Position numbers and translations under genes: made by a program. From NCBI RefSeq assembly GCF_003001995.1, contig NZ_PVNB01000032.1, positions 1-43,506 of the forward strand: a DNA stretch of 43,506 bases. Direction: 5' to 3'. Below, piece by piece: positions 2,930-43,315 of the stretch (the stretch's first letter is position 1; each line of letters starts with the position of its first letter). Under the pieces are notes generated by a model. The model ran no database searches, was not told where the DNA came from, and saw nothing but the letters and a program-made list of their open reading frames with translations. Source of the stretch: Orenia metallireducens (GTDB lineage Bacteria; Bacillota; Halanaerobiia; Halobacteroidales; Halobacteroidaceae).

Positions 2930-2932
2930 TTG
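2915..2932 (+). promoter_or_regulatory. ylbJ ribosome binding site and TTG start
   Basis: AAAGGAGGG at 2915-2923 is followed after 6 nt by TTG at 2930. This fixes the non-ATG start of ylbJ. Confidence 0.8.
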
Positions 2933-3364
2933 AAAAATGATATTAATAAAAGAGCAATCAATACAAAGGCTCTAATTGCTATCCTATTTACAATCTCTTT
3001 GATTATATTTTCAGAACAAGCCTTTGATGCCGCTGTAAGTGGCTTGCATACCTGGTGGGAAGTTGTATTTCCAGCACTCCTACCTTTCTTTATTATGGCA
3101 GAGATCTTAATGGGCTTGGGAGTAGTCCATTTTATGGGAACATTATTAGAACCCCTGATGCAGCCTATCTTTAAAGTTCCTGGAGTTGGTGCCTTTGCTT
3201 TTGCTATGGGTCTAGCTTCTGGATATCCTATTGGTGCTAAGATTACTGGTAACTTAAGAAGAGAAAAGCTCTGTACCCAAGCTGAAGGTGAGAGGTTGGT
3301 ATCTTTTACCAATACTGCTGATCCGTTGTTTATGATTGGAGCGGTGGCAAAGGTAACAATATGA
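2930..3364 (+). CDS. ylbJ: YlbJ, N-terminal part, interrupted by the element
   Basis: Encodes the first 139 residues of YlbJ, a multi-pass membrane protein made in the mother cell during sporulation (in Bacillus subtilis under sigma-E and needed for normal cortex). Visible features are a membrane segment near residues 10-28, then a Gate-type membrane domain with WWEVVFPALLPFFIMAEILMG, GFAMGLASGYPIGAKIT-like residues and LVSFTNTADPLFMIGAVA. Host coding sequence ends at the GT of 3344-3345; the last few codons to the stop at 3362-3364 come from the inserted element. Reading across attL/attR joined at GT gives MIGAVAVGMFGN, as in intact YlbJ. The frame is otherwise undamaged, which argues against long decay. 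Confidence 0.93.
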   Translation: MKNDINKRAINTKALIAILFTISLIIFSEQAFDAAVSGLHTWWEVVFPALLPFFIMAEILMGLGVVHFMGTLLEPLMQPIFKVPGVGAFAFAMGLASGYPIGAKITGNLRREKLCTQAEGERLVSFTNTADPLFMIGAVAKVTI

Positions 3365-18799: not shown

Positions 18800-19060
18800 T
18801 TATAAAAGTATATTTAGAGCTTTTTTCAAAATCTCTACTTCTTGTTTTAATTGTTTATTTTCTTTTTTTATAGCTAATAATGCTTCAATATTAATATTAT
18901 CTTCTATAAATATTTCTCTCTGTTCATAAAGTTTAATCCAATTATTTATAGAAACTATAGAAATATCATATTTATAAGCAATCTCTGATTTAGGTACTCC
19001 TAATTTGTAAAGTTCTACTATTATTTGTTTAAAAATTTCAGTATGAGTTTTTTTATTCAT
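18800..19060 (-). CDS. IS3-type OrfA-like HTH protein at the head of the effector operon
   Basis: An 86-aa protein with a helix-turn-helix (VPKSEIAYKYDISIVSINNWIK, ~20-41) and a C-terminal leucine-zipper helix (IKKENKQLKQEVEILKKALN, ~65-84): the complete layout of IS3-family OrfA. No OrfB follows; cas3' starts 26 nt later. A good AAAGGA site precedes its ATG, and the promoter targeted by the pseudo-spacer lies just upstream, so it is probably co-transcribed with the cas genes. It may be an insertion-sequence relic or a domesticated DNA-binding regulator of the operon. The frame is intact and starts well, which mildly favours a kept function. Confidence 0.7.
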   Translation of the reverse strand: MNKKTHTEIFKQIIVELYKLGVPKSEIAYKYDISIVSINNWIKLYEQREIFIEDNINIEALLAIKKENKQLKQEVEILKKALNILL

Positions 19061-19395: not shown

Positions 19396-20379
19396 TTACT
19401 TATATACCTCCATCATCCCCTTAATTTCATCCTTAATCTCCTCTCGTAAACTCTCAGGCTCCAACACCTCAGCACTAGCTCCATATTTCAAAATCCAACC
19501 TTTAACCTCACTCAAACCAGAAGTCGTAAAACTCATTATGATACTACCACCCTCTAACTCTTCAACCTCCTGAGTTGGATGATAATTATTCTCTTTAATC
19601 CATCTAGCTATATCACCACTAAACTTAACTTTAACCTGTACATCCTTCTCACCACGCATTGTTCCCCAGGAATTACCCATATATTTTTTCAAAGAAAAAT
19701 CATCTGGATACTTAAATTTATCCCTAGTAATCTTAATCTCCTTAATCCTATCTACTCTAAACATTCTAGTCTCATTTTTATTATGACAATAGGCAATTAG
19801 ATATAAAAATCCCTTTTTAAAATCTAATATATATGGAGATACAATTCTCTCACTAGTCTTATTGCTTTTATGACTATAATATTTAATCCAAACATTTGTT
19901 TCTTTATGAATAGCATTATCCAGCAAGGTATATATTTCTCTACACTCACTATAATCAACCAATGAATTTAAACTAAAGTGAATTCTACTTTTCAATGGTT
20001 CTAAAACAGCTTGTACTTTACTGGGTAAGGTAGCAGTTATTTTAGCCAAAGAACTGTTTACTTCCTCATAATAAGGTAATTCACTGTTATTTAAGATACT
20101 GTTACTACTTGCTATCAATGCAAGTGCTTCTGATAAAGTTAAATTAGGTGGTTTAAGGTGACAGTCTTCTCTTATTTTATAGGCTTTTAATTTTCTATTA
20201 TAATAAATAACTATCCCCGCTTCTTCTAAACAATTCTTATAACGAAAAAAAGTATTTTTCTTAATATCTAATAAGTTTTGAATCTCCTCTCTATTATATC
20301 GAGAATGTTTTCCTTCAATTAGATTTACCATCTTTATCATCTTCCAAGCTTTATCTGCAACTTTCCCCACATTAAACAC
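19396..20379 (-). CDS. HTH-WYL transcriptional regulator
   Basis: 327 aa. An N-terminal winged-helix region (~15-70: SRYNREEIQNLLDIKKNTFFRYKNCLEEAGIVIYYN) is followed by a WYL domain (~140-235: NVWIKYYSHKSNKTSERIVSPYILDFKKGFLYLIAYCHNKNETRMFRVDRIKEI) and a C-terminal WCX-like extension (VKVKFSGDIARWIKENN...). WYL proteins bind nucleic acid or nucleotide ligands and often control CRISPR and other defence loci. It follows the adaptation genes in the same direction and precedes the effector operon, so it is well placed to control either. The palindrome before cas1 (23466-23485) is a candidate site, but this is inference. Confidence 0.85.
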   Translation of the reverse strand: MFNVGKVADKAWKMIKMVNLIEGKHSRYNREEIQNLLDIKKNTFFRYKNCLEEAGIVIYYNRKLKAYKIREDCHLKPPNLTLSEALALIASSNSILNNSELPYYEEVNSSLAKITATLPSKVQAVLEPLKSRIHFSLNSLVDYSECREIYTLLDNAIHKETNVWIKYYSHKSNKTSERIVSPYILDFKKGFLYLIAYCHNKNETRMFRVDRIKEIKITRDKFKYPDDFSLKKYMGNSWGTMRGEKDVQVKVKFSGDIARWIKENNYHPTQEVEELEGGSIIMSFTTSGLSEVKGWILKYGASAEVLEPESLREEIKDEIKGMMEVYK

Positions 20380-26247: not shown

Positions 26248-26472
26248 TAAATTAAATATATAGTTTAGTGTTTTTCTCTCGTTTTGGTACTTTTCTTGAT
26301 TGTTATAATTTAAAGTTATATGCCTTCTAAATCTGTTATAAAAAGCTTTAATATGTCCAAATATATCTCGCCTTACTTATTCTAATTGGATAAACTTTAT
26401 GATAGATTAACTCAGTTTTTAATGTATCCAAAAATCTTTCTATTAAAGTATTATCCCAACAGTTTCGTATTA
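26248..26472 (-). pseudogene. IS3-family transposase OrfB, C-terminal remnant with frameshift
   Basis: The minus strand reads CWDNTLIERFLDTLKTEL, then after a frameshift AFYNRFRRHITLNYN and EKYQNERKTLNY. This is the conserved end of the IS3 OrfB integrase domain (CWDNA-x-E-x-FF-x-x-LK, YN-x-x-R-x-H-x-x-LNY). No upstream part or IS ends are visible. It abuts leader 2. Confidence 0.85.
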
Positions 26473-26564
26473 TAAACATAAGCTAAAAACTAACTATATT
26501 TATAATCATAATAACATCTTTTTTGAGCCTAACCTTATTTCTTATAACATTTTAAATTATTGCT

Positions 26565-28235
26565 TTAATCTCTACTTAATACCAATACTCTCTTCCCTTG
26601 AAAAGCTAATCCTATCTCTAAAATCTCTGTTATCCCTTCTTCCATTAAGTTACTCCTATAATTTCTATCTTTAATCTGTTCTAATGCTTGTTTAGCTCCC
26701 TCTTCCAAGCTATCACTATTACCTACCTTCTTAAATTCCATCACAATCCCTAATTGCTCCTTATTATTAGGAATTAACATCACATCATACCTTCCATATC
26801 CACTCTCACGATTAGATTTAACTTGGTACTCTCCCCGTAGATTTACCATTAAACCTAAGACAAAGGCATGATAAAAGTTCTCCGAATTACCTCTTCCAAT
26901 ATCAAAGTAACTAAATGAAGATTCTACTATCTCTTTAAAAATCTTAGTAAAGGTCTCTATATCACCTTCAGTCAGACTTTTTAGCATCCATTCTAACTCT
27001 TCATTTCTTAGATTTTCTTTAAACCAATCCAAAATAATACTACGATAAATATATTCGACTTCTATATTAGGAATCTCTAATTCACAATATAGATGACCTA
27101 ATTTTCTCTCCTGTTTGCTGGCTTTTAAATACCCACTTAATAATAGAAAGCTCCAAATAGTGTTATTACTCTTCTCTAAATCTGAAAAAATAATGTTATC
27201 ATCAATCTCTTTTTTAACACTACTTCCTTCTAACAAATGTTCTAAATCTTTCTTTACACCACTACCTGATTCAGTAATCAGCCTTTTAATTAATTCATTA
27301 CCACTAGTATTCGCCCAGTAAGGTCTGAGTTCTCCTTGTTGGTAAATACAGTTTATTATTGACCAAGGGTTATAAACAATCTTCTCTCCAAACTTATAGC
27401 CATTATACCAAGATTTAATCTCTTCTACTTTATAAGTAAGGTTATAATAATCAAATATCTCCTCCACTTCTTCTTCTAATAGACCAAAATAAGAGTCATA
27501 AGGTATATCTAATAGGGTACTTACTAATAAGTTATTCAAACCAGAAAAGATACTTTCTTTAGCTACTCTTAAAATACCTGTTAAGACCCCTTTGTTTAGG
27601 TTAGGATTATCCTTTAGTCCTCCACTTAGTATATTACGCATAAAGCTCATTACTTCCTGATAAAAACCTTTTAAATACCCTTGCTGAATTGGCTGGTCAT
27701 ATTCATCAATTAAAATTATAGTCTTTTCTTGATGATAATTAGCCAGATACTCAGAAAGATTCCTTAAAGCGTCTTCATAAAAAGGCAATTCAGCTTTTAA
27801 AGATATAATTTCATGAAACTGCTCCTTATCATACTTATCTAAAAGGTCACTATCTAGTAAATATCTATGTCTTTTATACTCTCTAGCTACAACTTGCTTT
27901 AACTTGATATAGGTTCTCTCCCAAGTCTCCTCTTTGATATCCTTAAATGTAATCATAATTATAGGGTATTTCCCCTGTTCTTGTAAATATTCTTCTCCTG
28001 CTTGCTGTATACTTAGTTCTTCAAACAAACTACTATTATCAAGTTCACCTTTTTCAAAAAAATAACTTAACATGGAAAGATTCAAAGTCTTTCCAAATCG
28101 TCGAGGTCTAGGTAATAAAATTACTTTTGAACCATCATCTATGATATCTTTAATAAGCAAACTCTTATCAACATAATAATAGTCATTCTCTATTATCTCT
28201 TTAAAATCACTCACACCTATCGGTAATTTATGCAT
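26565..28235 (-). CDS. AAA-ATPase-like / PD-(D/E)XK nuclease-like protein
   Basis: 556 aa from the ATG at 28233-28235 (AGGGGTGA upstream; a GTG nine bases earlier is less likely). The N-terminus MHKLPIGVSDFKEII...YYVDKSLLI, Walker A-like RPRRFGKTLN (~44-53) and ILIDEYDQPI (Walker B, ~176-185) define the AAA-ATPase-like family (PF09820). The C-terminus YGRYDVMLIPN...GIVMEFKKVG carries the D and E-x-K of a PD-(D/E)XK domain (PF08011). These large paralogous families are common in anaerobes; a cargo, defence or toxin role has been suggested for relatives but is not known here. Confidence 0.85.
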   Translation of the reverse strand: MHKLPIGVSDFKEIIENDYYYVDKSLLIKDIIDDGSKVILLPRPRRFGKTLNLSMLSYFFEKGELDNSSLFEELSIQQAGEEYLQEQGKYPIIMITFKDIKEETWERTYIKLKQVVAREYKRHRYLLDSDLLDKYDKEQFHEIISLKAELPFYEDALRNLSEYLANYHQEKTIILIDEYDQPIQQGYLKGFYQEVMSFMRNILSGGLKDNPNLNKGVLTGILRVAKESIFSGLNNLLVSTLLDIPYDSYFGLLEEEVEEIFDYYNLTYKVEEIKSWYNGYKFGEKIVYNPWSIINCIYQQGELRPYWANTSGNELIKRLITESGSGVKKDLEHLLEGSSVKKEIDDNIIFSDLEKSNNTIWSFLLLSGYLKASKQERKLGHLYCELEIPNIEVEYIYRSIILDWFKENLRNEELEWMLKSLTEGDIETFTKIFKEIVESSFSYFDIGRGNSENFYHAFVLGLMVNLRGEYQVKSNRESGYGRYDVMLIPNNKEQLGIVMEFKKVGNSDSLEEGAKQALEQIKDRNYRSNLMEEGITEILEIGLAFQGKRVLVLSRD

Positions 28236-28244
28236 AATTTTCAC

Positions 28245-28917
28245 CCCTACCCATTAATCTTAAACTTATTCTATAACCTACTTTGAATAATTAATCAAAG
28301 AACAAAAATAACCTTTTGTTATTTTCCTCTTTCTTAAATTAATCATCTGCTAATTTAAGTTAGAAATCAAATTATAATTTTCTCTTCTTATCTTATCCCT
28401 ATTACTTAAATTATACCTAATTTTGAGTGTATATCAAGTTAATCAATCTAGCAATAAGAAAATATCAAATTCTGCGTTTTTGTTTTTTGCTTTTAATATG
28501 ATTACATTCGTAATCAAAAATAGAAAAAAATGATTACATCTGTAATCATACTGAATTTAGATAGTAAATAAGTATTTTTATTGTAGATATCCACTCAGAT
28601 TGCTTACTGTTAAATTTGTATAAGTTAATTTAATTAATCTAGCTAAATTTAGTACCAATGGCTATTAATCAGTTATTCTTTACTAATCACTGTAAATCAG
28701 AAAAACCTTCTGTTAAAATAACAGAAGGTTAATCATATCTATTTAAATACTTTTATTTTTGATTACATTTGTAATCATATATGGAGATTTTAATCCCCTT
28801 CAAGACTATTTTTATGAGTTTCCTACTTTTTGATTACGCTTGTAATCGTAATAATTTATATTCTAAATTCTATTGGAATAATTTATTTAGCTTTAGGTTA
28901 TTTATGGGATGTCCTGA
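28245..28917. other. Intergenic region with GATTAC palindromes
   Basis: No gene seen. It contains four GATTAC-N4-GTAATC palindromes (28500, 28532, 28761, 28832) and a minus-strand terminator (28701-28730) in otherwise AT-rich DNA. Confidence 0.6.
28701..28730 (-). terminator. Rho-independent terminator
   Basis: AACCTTCTGTT and AACAGAAGGTT pair perfectly around a 5-nt loop, with a T run on the minus strand. It stands downstream of the small gene fragment at 28956. Confidence 0.75.
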
Positions 28918-28955
28918 TTTTTATTTTAGTCTAATATATTAGACTAAAATAAAAA
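28918..28955. repeat. 38-bp perfect palindrome
   Basis: Arms TTTTTATTTTAGTCTAATA and its complement meet without a loop, directly after the stop of the fragment at 28956. A diverged copy lies at 31083-31120. It could work as a bidirectional terminator. Confidence 0.7.
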
Positions 28956-29290
28956 CTAAGCTTCAATCTGAAATTGATAATTATCTATAAAAAACCAAGC
29001 CTCTTGACCTTCTCTTAATGAATGATAAACATCCATAATTAATAAATCCATTAATTTACTCTTAAACTGTTCATCTTGTAAGACTTTACCGTAAAAATTC
29101 TGATTCTTACTATATGAATCGACGACATTATCATCAAATATCTTCTCAAAAGCTAAACTGAAATCATCTAAGATATTAACCTTAGCTTTCTCTTTTAAGT
29201 CTTCATTCTTCTTCAAGCCACTTCTAATCTGGTCTATTGCTATCTTTTCAGCTTCACTGAAATTAGTCTGGAATCTTTGATTTATTTTCT
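28956..29290 (-). pseudogene. Fragment resembling the C-terminus of a type I restriction R subunit
   Basis: An in-frame stretch from ~29290 reads KINQRFQTNFSEAEKIAIDQ, then KKNEDLKEKAKVNILDDFSL and DSYSKNQNFYGKVLQDEQFK, with a stop at 28956. The last 60 residues (FYGKVLQDEQFKSKLMDLL, then a helix) resemble the helical C-terminus of HsdR. Upstream the frame closes inside the GATTAC palindrome at 29293, so the piece is bounded by that repeat. A TTG at 29214-29216 would allow an 86-aa product. Family assignment is tentative. Confidence 0.4.
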
Positions 29291-29308
29291 GTGATTACAC
29301 TCGTAATC

Positions 29309-30200
29309 TTAATATAATTCTCAACAATAAGGAACTTTCTTCAAAAGCTCAACATTGAGCTTATTCTATCTAAAATCAACCTCTTCAAAATCCATAAAAA
29401 TGACTACAAATCAAGCTTTTATTACTATATCAGTTAAATCAAAACTACTCTCTACTACAAATTAACAACCTAAAAATATACAAGTTTAATTATGATTACT
29501 TTTGTAATCATAAGTTATATATATTTAATAAATCAGAGCTATTTTTGACCTGAATTTTACTATTAGATTACAAATGTAATCAATATCTTGGCAATTAATA
29601 ATCAATCACTAATTAATCTTATACTATCTTAGCTACTAGTTAATAATCAGTTGAATATTGAAATAACAATCGATTGATAATTAATCTATTACTATTGGCT
29701 AGTTGTATACTTATAACTCTAGCATGAATTCTTAATAATTTTCCTACCGATAAACTCTAAGCTAAAGATAAAATTATCTCTATTTTTATTCAAAAGCCCA
29801 AAAATACGTCATATAACCTCTAAAACTATCTTTTAATGTTTTATACCATAACAAGTATAAATATCCTTTATACCCAGCCACAGAGCCTCTCAAGCATGTT
29901 TCTAACTTGACAATAACCCCAAATATCAAATTAACCTCTTAAAATTAATATTTTGCTGAGATTATCTTATTACCTAGAATTAGATTCTTGACTTTAAATA
30001 TAATTCAACTTCAATAAGCTAATCTTCTGTATCACTCATAATCTGTTTACTTAACTGCTTCTTTTTTAATCTTGTAGAATATTAATCACACTAAACTCAA
30101 TTACTATTACTGGGAAAGTAAGCGATATTATATGATAAATATCTAATTTACCTTTATCTATTGCATCTTTCTTATAAGCATTATAATTTCAATTCAGAAA
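29309..30200. other. AT-rich non-coding region
   Basis: No credible gene. It holds GATTAC palindromes at 29494 and 29566 and many short TTAATCA/TGATTAA runs. From about 30165 it shows weak similarity to the initiator gene. Confidence 0.5.
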
Positions 30201-30407
30201 AAGCGACTTTCCCCTATTGTCTTTAAGAGGGTTTGTATTCTCTGTAGTAGTCTCTGTAATGGAACGTGACGTTTTGACAACATCGACCTTGTCATTTTGA
30301 CATCATCTTATAGTGACAAGGGTTTGCAGTGGTTTTTTGACTGTTTTTTAGCCAATTTAATCAATTTTTAGGATTACATGTTGTCATTTTGCCAACATTA
30401 ATTTTTA
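30201..30407 (-). repeat. Duplicated segment of the replication-initiator gene, copy A
   Basis: About 205 bp nearly identical to 32191-32399. Part of it (30201-30300) is clearly homologous to the initiator coding sequence at 37400-37510: the minus strand still reads QNDKVDVVKTSRSITETTTE. It lacks an open frame across its length. It begins in the last codons of the 167-aa gene. Confidence 0.85.
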
Positions 30408-30901
30408 CTTTTATTGATTGGAAAGGGAATTACATTATCTTTATGCTTTAACTTATCTTTACTTCCTAATTGACTGTTACCCATATTGTCCAACATATAA
30501 TCAAATAGAGTCTCTTGATCTGCATTCTCTAAAATATCGACTGGAATTTCAAAATCAAAGCTTGCTATCTCAGTAAACCTATCTGAAAATATTATGCTAT
30601 GCAACTCTAATTCCTTCTTACTTAAAATTTGAAATAGATCTTCTTCTTTTTCTACTTCCATAATCTCCATCTTATCCTTTAAACTATGATAAGCTCTTCT
30701 TTGAATATCAGATAATCTTTCCTTAATATTCTCTTCTATAACAGTAGTGAGAAAGTCTCTTGCTCTCACCAATTCTTCTATACTCCAATCTCCTTCTATT
30801 ATATCTGAAGGCATTGTCTCACCTTTATTAATACAATGAGCTATTACCTTCTCGCACTTTAAATTTCTATCTGTTAAATTAATTTCAATACTATTATTCA
30901 A
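30398..30901 (-). CDS. Hypothetical protein, 167 aa
   Basis: Not recognised. It starts with TTG (30899-30901) behind AGGGGGT, is acidic and helix-rich (DWSIEELVRARDFLTTVIEENIKERLSD, ~39-66), and ends in a basic tail (KDKLKHKDNVIPFPINKSKN) that runs into repeat copy A, so the original 3' end may have been replaced. No membrane segment or signal peptide. Confidence 0.6.
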   Translation of the reverse strand: MNNSIEINLTDRNLKCEKVIAHCINKGETMPSDIIEGDWSIEELVRARDFLTTVIEENIKERLSDIQRRAYHSLKDKMEIMEVEKEEDLFQILSKKELELHSIIFSDRFTEIASFDFEIPVDILENADQETLFDYMLDNMGNSQLGSKDKLKHKDNVIPFPINKSKN

Positions 30902-32190
30902 CTATACGACCCCCTATTTATCAACCAATTCCCACCATATCTAAATTTTTATTAATTTATCACACTGTGATTCCTTAAGGTTTATTATTCTAATCCAGAT
31001 AATCTTCATAGCTTTCTGAAATATACCTTATTCAAAATATCCCATTATATTCAAAGTCTTTAAATTTAAATCAAAAGCCCAATTTTTATTTTGGTCGTAT
31101 AAGGTAGACTAAAATAAAAACTGCGCCTCAATATTGAAGAAAAGAATCTTTATAAATAACAAATTAAATGATCTTAAGCTCTAAAACTATATTATATAAA
31201 TTTATCTCCCAATTAAAAATATCCTTTTATTTCTTAGTATGATTACACCTGTAATCATACTTTGATAACTCAATTATTAACTGATAAATAAAATAATAAT
31301 CAATTAACTCATTAATTGCTAATCTAATTACTAATGTTCTCACATCATATAATTTTAAAGAAAATCAGTGTAAATATCATAATACTATTTATTCATACTA
31401 TCTTAGCTGGCACATATATCAAATAAGTAGCTATCGGTTCTAGACTTCAAGTATATTATTCTAATCCAGATTACTCACACTAGAAACCCAATGTAGTATC
31501 CTTAATATCTATTTCTACTGTTACCCTATCATTTCTTATAACCCCTACAATATTAGTCTGTTAATCTATCATTTAAGAACTTATATTTTATTAAAGAGCT
31601 GAGCACAACATAACGTTTTGACAACACCCCATAGTATCAAGGGGTTATAGGTGGTTTTGAGGTATTATCTTAAATTCTAGTTTTTAATCGCTACAATGTT
31701 AACTATTTTCTTAAAATAAGTCTTTAGCTTAACTGAGAACTTATCTTTTAAAAAGTTATAGTTTAAATTTATTGCTATCTTCTCAACAGACTATCAACTC
31801 TAAGATTTATAAATTTTAAGCCTTAGCTGATATATTGACAAAGTTAGTATATTCCTGTCATAGTTAATGGTTGCAGAAACACCTCTTTAAGAAGCTTATC
31901 TTCTTGGTTAATGGTTTTATACCAAAAGAGGGATCAGAACAATTTAAGGTACATTCTTGTCTTTTTGAGGGGTATCTATATACCATAATAAGAATGTAAT
32001 AATATAATTGTAAGACAAAATTGCAATTACTCTGAAACAAACTGTCTAACTTAACTGCTGATCTTATCTCTTAAATTGAAGATAAATAGCACTTTATTAT
32101 AACTGGGAAATGAAGCTTGTCTTATATAAGCAGATAATTTAATTTATCAACTCTATCTTTCGTATAAGAAATAAACTCACTATTAAGCAA
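30902..32190. other. Long non-coding region
   Basis: No gene seen. It contains the diverged 38-bp palindrome (31083-31120), the last GATTAC palindrome (31241-31256) and a short initiator-gene fragment at about 31604-31665 (minus strand, matching TATGGGATGTTGTCAAAA of the gene). Another inverted repeat, AAGAAGCTTATCTTCTT, lies near 31890-31910. Confidence 0.55.
31083..31120. repeat. Diverged copy of the 38-bp palindrome
   Basis: TTTTTATTTTGGTC...GACTAAAATAAAAA keeps the arms of the perfect palindrome at 28918-28955; the centre has changed. The following bases (ACTgcGCcTCAAT) also resemble the end of the restriction-like fragment, so a longer unit was duplicated. Confidence 0.65.
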
Positions 32191-32399
32191 AAGCGAAGTT
32201 TCCCCTATTGTCTTTAAAAGGGTTTGTATTCTCTGTAGTAGTCTCTGTAATGGAACGTGACGTTTTGACAACATCGACCTTGTCATTTTGACATCATCTT
32301 ATAGTGACAAGGGTTTGCAGTGGTTTTTTGACTGTTTTTTAGCCAATTTAATCAATTTTTAGGTCTGCATGTTGTCATTTTGACAACATTGATTTTTAT
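32191..32399 (-). repeat. Duplicated segment of the replication-initiator gene, copy B
   Basis: Near-identical to copy A (30201-30407) over ~200 bp and in the same orientation. It lies directly downstream of the protease gene, as copy A lies downstream of the 167-aa gene. It ends in the palindrome ATGTTGTCA-TTT-TGACAACAT-like sequence. Confidence 0.85.
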
Positions 32400-32409
32400 T
32401 CTTATAGAT

Positions 32410-32442
32410 AAAAAACCATCAACAGATTTTATCTGCTAATGG
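32410..32442 (-). terminator. Terminator of the first protease gene
   Basis: Minus strand: CCATTAGCAGAT pairs with ATCTGTTGATGG, followed by TTTTTT (32410-32415), about 60 nt after the protease stop. Confidence 0.8.
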
Positions 32443-35630: not shown

Positions 35631-38069
35631 TTAACCCCCTTCCTTTTCCATTTCAGCCTTCATCTTCTCATAAGATAAAGTAGGCTCAATTTCAAATTTT
35701 TTCATTAGTCTTTGTTGTCTTTTTCGATACTCATTCATATTTACAACCCTTTGCTTAGGTACAAAGTTAAACCATTTTTCAGTATTCTCAATAGTCCTAA
35801 TAACCTGTTCTAACTCTCTGCTTCCGTTAGCAAACTGATAAGAGTTAGTGTAGTTATCAAAAGCTTTTTTAAGTTCGTCTAAGCTAAAGTGATTAAAAAC
35901 TAATTCTAACTTATGCTTTCTAGTAAAGGAGATAGTTCTAAGGTTTACACCACTAACGCGTTTAAAGTAAGCACAAGCCTTATAGATAGGGCAACTATCC
36001 TTCTTAGAGCAAGTTTTATTTAAACAATCTAAATTAGGGTTAGAACAGATATTAAAATCTTTTAGTTGACGTTTTTGGTGATGTTCTTTAATTACTCTTT
36101 TAGCATCTTCAATGGTCTTAACACCTTTGCTATACCAGTCTTCTAAGATACTAACAAAATACTGAACAGGTTGTTGATCTTTAGTCTCATTAAGGGCAAA
36201 GTAGATAACTTCTGTGTGCATATTATTCTCTAAGCAGTCAAAAATCAATTTATTAATCTTAGTGCCATACTTATTACCGCCAATATGCATTCTAAACTTG
36301 TTAAAGAAATCTATGGCGAATCGTTGCCAAAACTTAGTCTTATGTTCAGTGCTTGTCCAGCCTAATAAACTTTTTACACGTCGCTTACTTGTTAAAATTA
36401 CAGCAGGAACTAAGTGGTGTTCTTTAACTTTAGTGTATTCTGCTAAGAAAGCATCACTACTCATAACTATAATAGCTCTTAGTAGTTGTTGTGTAGAGAG
36501 GCCTTCATCTAAGCGGTCTTTAATTGCTCTGATATCTTGTTTAGTAAGGCTCTTGTTGCCTATAATTTCAATATAACCTGTTACTACCTCGTCAACAAGG
36601 GAATCTTGAATATTATTATCTTCAAAAACTTCATTTCCTGAAACATTATCTTCTAAATCTTCTGTTTTTTCTTTTTTGCCAAGAATAACCTCTTCAACTT
36701 GCTCTTTTTCAAGGATTATACTAGTTTCTTTTACATCAGCAGATGAATATCCCTCTATTTTTTCAATATTTTTGTATTTATTAACTAACTGCTTATAATT
36801 TTCCTGCTCTGTAAGATATAAATCGTGTAAACTTTTATTTTGATATAATTTATTCTTTGGGTCATTATAAATTTTAAAACAATATTCTGCAAAGCTAATG
36901 TCTTCAATAGTCAAACCTTCATCGTTACCTTGATAAAGTGTTGCAGAAGGATCATATAAATTCTTATACACACCTCTTATCTCTAAAGCAAATATATCTA
37001 TCAATTCATCAACGGTTAACTCACCATAACGTTCTGGCATATCCTTAGCAGATTTATCTTTTGTTTTGGTAGACTCACTTTCTTTAACATGCTTGTTACT
37101 AACAGGAGTATCTTCTTGGACAGTGGAAGCAGATGTGTTTTCTACTGTGCTACTTTGTATTTGAGACATAGTTTGATCTAAGACATCACCAATAGCAGAT
37201 GTATCTCCATCTCGCATATAATTAACCTCCTCAATTTCATTATTAAATAAAGGGTCAACTAACTGCTTGTCCTTTGAATTTGAAGAAGGAGTAGTTATCC
37301 CCTTATTTTTTATACTTGGGGTAGGAGCGTTTTTTGTATAAGCAGAAGAATTACTTTTAAAAACTCCCTTTTTCTTATAAGAATTAGAATTACAATTAAG
37401 CAAACGCGACTTCCCCTTATTGTCTTTAAGGGTATTTGTATTCTCTGTAGTAATCTCTGTAATGGAACGTGACGTTTTGCCAACATCGACCTTGTCATTT
37501 TGACAACATCCCATAATATCAGGGTTTTGGAGGCTATTTGTAACCTTTTTTCCCTCATTTAGCTCTCTTTGTAGGTGTTTAACCTTGTCATTTTGCCAAG
37601 GTTGGTCTAATTGCTTTTCTTCTTCTTTTTGTGTATCTAGTATAATATTATTTTCTTTAAAATGCTTGCTTAATTCGCTAATTAAAACATTTATATTTAA
37701 AACAAGATTAAGACACTTTTTACCTGCAAACATTCCTTGTGCTGTTGAAATTAAATTCTTATCTTCTAAATTTTTTCTAACGCGCAAAAATTGTCTGTGA
37801 CTTATCCGTAATTCATCACACCATTGAGCAATAGTTTTGGCAATACAGTATTCACCTTTCTTATTCTTAGCTCTCAATTTACTTCTACCCTTCTTATTAG
37901 GCAGATACCAATACACTATTTGACCCAATAGTATCCCGCTAATAAAGTCTTTCATCATATCTATGTATATCTTATTCACTCTATAAACTTCCTTGTTGTT
38001 TTCTTCAAACTTAACTAAATCTTTATAATCAATCAACTTAATTACTTCACTATTAATTGTTTTTTCCAT
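35631..38069 (-). CDS. Replication-initiator-like protein, 812 aa
   Basis: The N-terminal ~130 residues (VNKIYIDMMKDFISGILLGQIVYWYLP, then TIAQWCDELRISHRQFLRVRKNLEDKNLI) form a winged-helix of the type found in plasmid and phage replication initiators of Firmicutes. A long polar linker with QNDKV repeats and TEITTENTNTL follows (~150-230), a second helical part (~300-380), and a C-terminal region with CSNPNLDCLNKTCSKKDSC (~690-710), possibly metal-binding. It likely starts replication of the excised circle. Pieces of the linker region are duplicated at 30201, ~31604 and 32191. Exact family not recognised. Confidence 0.65.
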   Translation of the reverse strand: MEKTINSEVIKLIDYKDLVKFEENNKEVYRVNKIYIDMMKDFISGILLGQIVYWYLPNKKGRSKLRAKNKKGEYCIAKTIAQWCDELRISHRQFLRVRKNLEDKNLISTAQGMFAGKKCLNLVLNINVLISELSKHFKENNIILDTQKEEEKQLDQPWQNDKVKHLQRELNEGKKVTNSLQNPDIMGCCQNDKVDVGKTSRSITEITTENTNTLKDNKGKSRLLNCNSNSYKKKGVFKSNSSAYTKNAPTPSIKNKGITTPSSNSKDKQLVDPLFNNEIEEVNYMRDGDTSAIGDVLDQTMSQIQSSTVENTSASTVQEDTPVSNKHVKESESTKTKDKSAKDMPERYGELTVDELIDIFALEIRGVYKNLYDPSATLYQGNDEGLTIEDISFAEYCFKIYNDPKNKLYQNKSLHDLYLTEQENYKQLVNKYKNIEKIEGYSSADVKETSIILEKEQVEEVILGKKEKTEDLEDNVSGNEVFEDNNIQDSLVDEVVTGYIEIIGNKSLTKQDIRAIKDRLDEGLSTQQLLRAIIVMSSDAFLAEYTKVKEHHLVPAVILTSKRRVKSLLGWTSTEHKTKFWQRFAIDFFNKFRMHIGGNKYGTKINKLIFDCLENNMHTEVIYFALNETKDQQPVQYFVSILEDWYSKGVKTIEDAKRVIKEHHQKRQLKDFNICSNPNLDCLNKTCSKKDSCPIYKACAYFKRVSGVNLRTISFTRKHKLELVFNHFSLDELKKAFDNYTNSYQFANGSRELEQVIRTIENTEKWFNFVPKQRVVNMNEYRKRQQRLMKKFEIEPTLSYEKMKAEMEKEGG
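37373..37545 (-). repeat. Initiator-gene segment that is the source of the dispersed copies
   Basis: Coding sequence of the low-complexity linker (NPDIMGCCQNDKVDVGKTSR, SITEITTENTNTL) that is homologous to copies A and B and the short 31604 fragment. In some Firmicute replicons the origin lies within the initiator's linker-coding region, so these could be origin-related. Confidence 0.7.
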
Positions 38070-42457: not shown

Positions 42458-42512
42458 TTTTTATATCATATTGTTCATAGTGCTGTAGCTGTAGGGATGT
42501 TTGGCAATGCTA
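42458..42512. promoter_or_regulatory. attR, right attachment site of the element
   Basis: TTTTTATATCATATTGT (42458-42474) is the exact inverse complement of 3356-3372. Ten bases later is GT at 42485-42486, then ylbJ codons GTA-GCT-GTA-GGG-ATG in frame. It pairs with attL for the crossover. Confidence 0.88.
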
Positions 42513-43315
42513 AGCTAGGTACTACTTTAGCATTGGCCCATTATATCTCCTGTTTAATTGTTGGTATAGGTTTAAGATTCTATAATCCCAAAGAGAATAA
42601 TCAAGATGTAGTACGTAACACCAATACCGAAGGAAATATCTTTACTAGAGCTTTCAGTGAGCTATATCAAGCCAGAAGAAAGGATGGTAGAAGTTTAGGA
42701 CAACTGATTGGAGATGCCACTAAAGAGTCTCTTAATACTTTACTATTAATTGGAGGATATATTATCTTGTTCTCAGTCTTAACAAGAGTTTTAGCTTTAG
42801 TTGGATTTACTAAATTGATAACTGCTGGAATAGTATTTGTCTTAAAACCCTTTGGTTTTGATCAATCCCTTGTCTTACCTATTATCAGTGGATTATTTGA
42901 AATAACCAATGGTTCACATTTGGCTAGTCAGACTATGGCCCCATTAAGCCAGAAGATAATCATCACTAGTGGTATTATTGCTTGGAGTGGACTATCAGTT
43001 CATGCCCAGGTTGCTACTATGATCAATGGTACTGATCTGCGAATGAAACCTTACCTTTGGGCCAGAGTCTTTCATGGAATAACAGCTAGTCTTGTTACTT
43101 ACTTTTTATTTGAGCCTTTAGAAGCTATCTCTTCTAATTTAGTTACCCCGGTTACCTCTCTAGCCAATAGAGTCCATTATACTATCGGCTATTGGGACCA
43201 TTTTGCTAAAATGTCCAGTGGATTACTATTATTTTTAGGATTTTTAACCTTTACATCTCTAACTATCTATTTTATCAAGAAGATTAAGCTGGTGATGTTC
43301 CATTATTCAGAATGA
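42487..43315 (+). CDS. ylbJ: YlbJ, C-terminal part, separated by the element
   Basis: From the attR GT the frame reads AVGMFGNAKLGTTLALAHYI and continues to a TGA at 43313-43315, giving residues 140-414 of the reconstructed protein (B. subtilis YlbJ is of similar length). Hydrophobic segments near SLNTLLLIGGYIILFSVLTR, LITAGIVFVLKPFGF and the Gate-type GLFEITNGSHLASQT region show the second half of the membrane core. The internal ATG at 42497 has no ribosome site, so alone it is probably not translated. No stop or frameshift is present. Confidence 0.93.

Follow-up and report, generated by a model that had tools for sequence, protein, structure and literature searches.

Eight GATTAC-N4-GTAATC palindromes in a skin-like element of Orenia metallireducens

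Eight copies of a 16-bp palindrome, GATTAC-N4-GTAATC, lie close together on a contig of Orenia metallireducens, raising the question of what kind of protein might read them and to what end. The window analyzed here is the whole stretch of 43,506 nucleotides (assembly GCF_003001995.1, contig NZ_PVNB01000032.1). An initial annotation of the window had placed the palindromes in a non-coding zone and had offered a centromere-like parS cluster, origin iterons or a regulon of operators as possible explanations.

Eight sites with invariant arms

A pattern search of the window for exact GATTAC-N4-GTAATC matches reproduced the eight palindromes of the initial annotation, with the same coordinates and centers (Table 1), and 100 dinucleotide shuffles of the window contained none. 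Sites 1-7 fall within 1.1 kb and site 8 lies another 1.7 kb along, giving a total spread of 2.8 kb with site-to-site spacings of 32, 229, 71, 461, 201, 72 and 1675 bp. Since allowing up to two mismatches added no site in the window, despite a chance expectation of about 2.5, the palindrome set is all-or-none. An exact-match search of the strain's own genome (4,104,971 bases; 95 contigs, 99.96% complete) found the motif only at these eight places and the reversed control pattern nowhere. The motif is thus confined to the element described below, and the concern that it might be a common repeat scattered genome-wide does not hold. Each of 198 other genomes had 0-3 scattered matches, like the reversed control pattern, and when 3.4 Mb of further DNA was scanned, only four other sequences had a palindrome with 6-bp arms at least four times within 3.5 kb.

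The arms and the centers of the sites differ sharply in their conservation, as the initial annotation had observed. The mean pairwise identity of the eight sites is 100% in both arms and 46% in the four central bases; moving outward, it is 75% and 54% for the bases adjoining the arms, about 39% for the following nine positions and 34-36% for positions 11-20, with a composition expectation of about 31%. The half-site consensus (n = 16) is T(14/16) A(10/16) T(13/16) GATTAC R(15/16), with T at -3 and -1, and the extended consensus of the sites is TATGATTAC-R-N-N-Y-GTAATCATA (22-mer form, TATGATTACACCTGTAATCATA; duplex form, TGATTACACCTGTAATCA). Because the arms are identical and the centers and flanks are far nearer random, the sites did not arise by recent duplication of one another. 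All 96 arm bases are intact (96/96), placing the 95% upper bound on arm change at 3% per base, and the centers of the two arms are 10 bp apart, one helical turn. Invariant arms combined with variable centers and flanks argue for selection for binding by a homodimeric protein, a selection read from eight sites within one sequence and from one strain with this element. The eight palindromes are very probably genuine binding sites under recent selection, and, as a sequence-based reading, a cluster of symmetric protein-binding sites is well supported. The simplest reading of the site geometry is that the binder would be a homodimeric helix-turn-helix protein.

A mosaic zone within an element that splits a sporulation gene

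The two outermost coding segments in Table 1 are the halves of a Gate-domain gene, and the joined protein is 97% identical to that of an intact gene in a same-genus genome; the element junctions were placed by DNA alignment. We identify the split gene as ylbJ, renamed spoVV, from its Gate domain and from what we take to be the sequence and neighbors of ylbJ; rsmD and coaD adjoin the gene in a relative. Since spoVV is split and a large serine recombinase gene lies inside it, the window consists mostly of a skin-type element of about 39 kb. Like the sigK skin element, SP-beta in spsM and gin in gerE, it combines a large serine recombinase with the disruption of a sporulation gene, whereas here the target is spoVV/ylbJ, uninterrupted in relatives, and the cargo includes a type I-D CRISPR system. 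The cargo comprises two CRISPR arrays, a type I-D-like cas set, a WYL regulator and an 812-aa DnaD-domain Rep. Near the CRISPR locus there are also an IS3-type OrfA-like ORF with a transposase match (18800-19060) and a short ORF resembling what is left of an IS3 transposase (26348-26479).

In B. subtilis, spoVV (ylbJ) encodes the mother-cell transporter of dipicolinic acid (DPA) (PMC5629000). Excision in the mother cell would restore spoVV and discard the CRISPR locus. The element couples a type I-D CRISPR locus to a sporulation gene, and its stability therefore bears on the discarding of immunity in the mother cell. If the palindromes are live sites, an as yet unassigned DNA-binding protein would become identifiable, and they could show how elements that split sporulation genes are kept or silenced in this group of spore formers.

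Table 1 Features of the window that bear on the palindrome cluster
Feature	Coordinates	Strand	Remarks
spoVV (ylbJ), N-terminal part	2930..3348	+	element left boundary ~3339-3348
AAA-ATPase_like / PDDEXK_9 protein	26565..28244	-	start 256 bp from site 1
Site 1	28500..28515		GATTAC-ATTC-GTAATC; exact pattern match
Site 2	28532..28547		GATTAC-ATCT-GTAATC; exact pattern match
Site 3	28761..28776		GATTAC-ATTT-GTAATC; exact pattern match
Site 4	28832..28847		GATTAC-GCTT-GTAATC; exact pattern match
C-terminal remnant of HsdR-like gene	28956..29301 (end ~29300)	-	homology; ~1000 aa in relatives
Site 5	29293..29308		GATTAC-ACTC-GTAATC; one arm within hsdR-homologous sequence (LSVIIE codons)
Site 6	29494..29509		GATTAC-TTTT-GTAATC; exact pattern match
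Site 7	29566..29581		GATTAC-AAAT-GTAATC; exact pattern match
Rep linker region, decayed copy 1	30131..30440	-	TTGTCA-N3-TGACAA-like sites at 30289, 30381
167-aa ORF (ORF167)	30398..30901	-	TTG start after GGGGG stretch; family without assigned function
Site 8	31241..31256		GATTAC-ACCT-GTAATC; symmetry reaches 11-bp arms AGTATGATTAC/GTAATCATACT
Rep linker region, decayed copy 2	32121..32430	-	TTGTCA-N3-TGACAA-like sites at 32280, 32372
DnaD/DnaB_2-domain replication protein (Rep), 812 aa	35631..38069	-	presumed iterons in linker at 37492, 37585
Large serine recombinase of the element, 505 aa	38581..40098	+	inside split gene
spoVV (ylbJ), C-terminal part	42480..43315	+	element right boundary ~42480-42489

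The zone around the palindromes is a mosaic and not plain non-coding DNA. The initial annotation had placed the eight sites correctly, but the zone that it called non-coding contains the gene for ORF167 together with what is left of hsdR and, twice over, a decayed stretch of the rep linker. Of these, ORF167 alone is intact; it is a plausible small gene, belonging to a family with chromosomal paralogues and relatives within the same bacterial family. The two rep-linker copies match each other at 96% identity over 211 nt and the rep gene at about 70-80%, and their reading frames are broken. The HsdR name rests on sequence reading, the short remnant giving no Pfam hit. The hsdR homology extends across one arm of site 5; at that place the conserved LSVIIE codons of relatives have GAGTGTAAT. 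This suggests that site 5 arose at or after the decay of hsdR, although the overlap is only about nine bases. Site 5 was also considered as a recombination breakpoint, an idea that was dropped because the homology does not stop short of the site. At 28918-28955 there is a perfect palindrome of 38 bp, TTTTTATTTTAGTCTAATATATTAGACTAAAATAAAAA, and a degenerate copy of it lies 2.2 kb away at 31082-31120, both in the zone.

Six matches to TTGTCA-N3-TGACAA (at most one mismatch) were found in the window, all of them in the rep linker or its two copies. We presume that these are the Rep iterons, as related rep genes likewise carry linker repeats. The zone thus co-locates the GATTAC-N4-GTAATC palindromes with two extra copies of the presumed iterons. 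Of the three explanations offered for the palindromes, origin iterons rank lowest, given that the presumed iterons in the rep linker have another sequence. Origin iterons are direct repeats with near-regular helical spacing that the Rep of their replicon recognizes, and the palindromes are irregularly spaced, from 32 to 1675 bp apart.

Search for a binding protein and weighing of the readings

The initial annotation had stated that neither ParA nor ParB is encoded in the window, and the present searches agree: profile and BLAST searches of the window gave no credible match to ParA, ParM, Spo0J, XRE or a known centromere-binding protein. The absence of a partner gene refers to these window searches and to one family search of the genome, in which the only ParB_N protein was Spo0J, encoded beside Soj with a near-canonical parS adjoining. 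On the element, a single intact regulator-like gene was found, that of the WYL-domain protein (19396-20379). ORF167 was rejected as the binder, since it has no domain hit and no recognizable DNA-binding domain, its relatives are chromosomal and its model is unreliable (pLDDT 52). The AAA-ATPase homologues were likewise rejected as partners, as the stretches compared around them in other genomes contain no palindrome cluster.

Pattern scans of relatives, 398 phylum members and viral contigs yielded no comparable cluster among the matches listed. By DNA similarity, no equivalent cluster was found in 61 genomes, and plasmid and phage DNA collections gave no match. Nor was a cluster found near homologues of the recombinase, Rep or the AAA protein in other genomes, and a literature search for the motif returned nothing relevant. 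Viral contigs encoding relatives of the Rep N-domain had no GATTAC-N4-GTAATC cluster, only in-gene repeats and the XRE-type control described below. The palindrome cluster appears to be a new, orphan member of a known feature class, with no comparable cluster found in these relatives. Two clusters with the same GATTAC/GTAATC arms were judged unrelated: one in a phage genome (L255, 11209-11506) with a nearly fixed CTAG center, and one in a viral contig (L432, 8137-8236) with an ATAA center in a 21-bp tandem repeat. A motif pair in another genome (G310) was set aside as isolated, near genes reading like pyrrolysine biosynthesis.

We tentatively favor, as a weakly held reading, a dispersed maintenance (centromere-like) cluster for the excised or replicating element. 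One sequence-specific homodimer would read the TGATTACR half-sites, which face the same side of the helix at a distance of 10 bp, and a complex seeded by the bound dimers would anchor or partition the circle beside the iteron copies of the replicon. We lean towards a maintenance function mainly because of the nearest structural parallel, a plasmid-like contig of 4252 bases (L307; G042 contig 23) that carries parA, a small acidic partner, a palindrome-rich non-coding stretch (TATTTACGTAAATA) and then rep. Its Rep has the N-terminal domain in common with the element Rep and a linker with TTACCA-N2-TGGTAA-like repeats. The palindromes also resemble parS (host parS, TGTTTCACGTGAAACA) and plasmid parS clusters in being 16-bp palindromes in several dispersed copies, mostly non-coding and near the replication functions of one replicon; they differ in sequence and in their free 4-bp center, and no ParA/ParB gene was found in the element. 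Against the maintenance reading stand the lack of ParA, ParM or a centromere-binding protein in the window and the fact that the only ParB_N protein is Spo0J. For the same reason, the cluster is not a demonstrated parABS system, and we do not claim ParABS membership, because the cognate proteins (ParA with ParB, or ParM/ParR) were sought on the replicon and not found. The lack of an equivalent cluster in the relatives compared and of a recognizable DNA-binding domain in ORF167 likewise weighs against this reading. In addition, a partition site would serve no purpose if the element stays integrated throughout growth, as it may do. The cluster could instead be the centromere of an unrecognized maintenance system without ParA, ParM or ParB, whose binder belongs to a family not yet linked to segregation, which we consider improbable.

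Phage-type operators come close to the maintenance cluster and are nearly as likely, which leaves them doubtful in their own right. In such a case, an XRE/Cro-CI-like repressor would silence lytic or excision genes, its own gene having been lost or having diverged beyond recognition. The size and symmetry of the sites fit this class, several copies of one short palindrome lie on a phage-like element, and our positive control is alike: in L377, a phage locus, four perfect and two one-mismatch GATAC-N5-GTATC sites, short AT-rich palindromes with a variable center, cluster within 370 bp around an XRE gene and a divergent HTH gene. Sites 1-2 also lie in the region upstream of the AAA gene, close to a promoter-like match of 11/12 (28437-28410); the promoter scan gave as many hits as shuffles did. 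The control, however, surrounds its own repressor gene and has degenerate sites, as operator sets usually do, whereas the zone and its immediate surroundings yielded no repressor gene and no degenerate site accompanies the eight palindromes, which spread over 2.8 kb and mostly adjoin remnants rather than intact promoters. Of the explanations offered initially, a parS-like cluster and a repressor regulon are thus both still candidates.

The sites might also belong to another replicon's protein, mimicking a centromere or operators that belong to a helper, plasmid or phage, outside the assembly. SGI1 provides the model, an integrative element without its own parAB that carries two parS mimics, centromere-like sites bound by the ParB of its helper IncC plasmid (PMC10954446). 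The failure to find a candidate protein and the lack of any further site in the genome are in keeping with such a hijack, but the element has eight sites rather than two, no helper replicon with the motif was found among relatives or viral contigs, and the viral clusters with the same arms have fixed centers and look unrelated; we regard a hijack as quite improbable. It is very improbable that the sites are operators of the element's WYL regulator, tying the CRISPR locus to the genes at 28-31 kb. WYL regulators such as BrxR co-localize with defense systems, inverted repeats are discussed in a study of these regulators (PMC9122601), and the WYL gene is intact and regulator-like; however, no site, even with two mismatches, lies close to that gene, to the cas genes or to the leaders of the arrays. 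If the sites were left over from an earlier maintenance zone of a plasmid or phage, with the binder lost and the sites not yet decayed, the mosaic of decayed genes and the missing partner gene would fit, but the intact arms, without one- or two-mismatch derivatives and beside widely varying centers and flanks, make such a relic an improbable account. Finally, the repeats might act as RNA or single-strand hairpins instead of duplex binding sites; taken singly or as neighboring pairs, the sites do fold well (z -2.3 to -6.7), as any palindrome must. A purely structural role would tolerate compensatory changes, none of which is present in the eight copies with their invariant arms, and we therefore disfavor this role as highly improbable.

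Other possible insertions in sporulation genes

The same genome encodes a second serine recombinase, 46% identical to that of the window (L294, 15748-17482; G000 contig 31). Its gene lies next to the apparent beginning of a sigK-type sigma factor gene, which suggests a further skin-type element. In another genome of the same genus (G002), spoVV is split at the same codon, with the halves on different contigs (6 and 7); the recombinase there is 53% identical, and no other element gene or zone is common to the two in the DNA compared. Extra, stop-bearing N-terminal fragments of spoVV were found in two further genomes that also have an intact spoVV (G006 contig 5, 63788-64231 and 79213-79653; G007 contigs 54 and 62). 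One of these fragments adjoins an AAA-ATPase_like gene, and the fragments are possible traces of repeated insertions.
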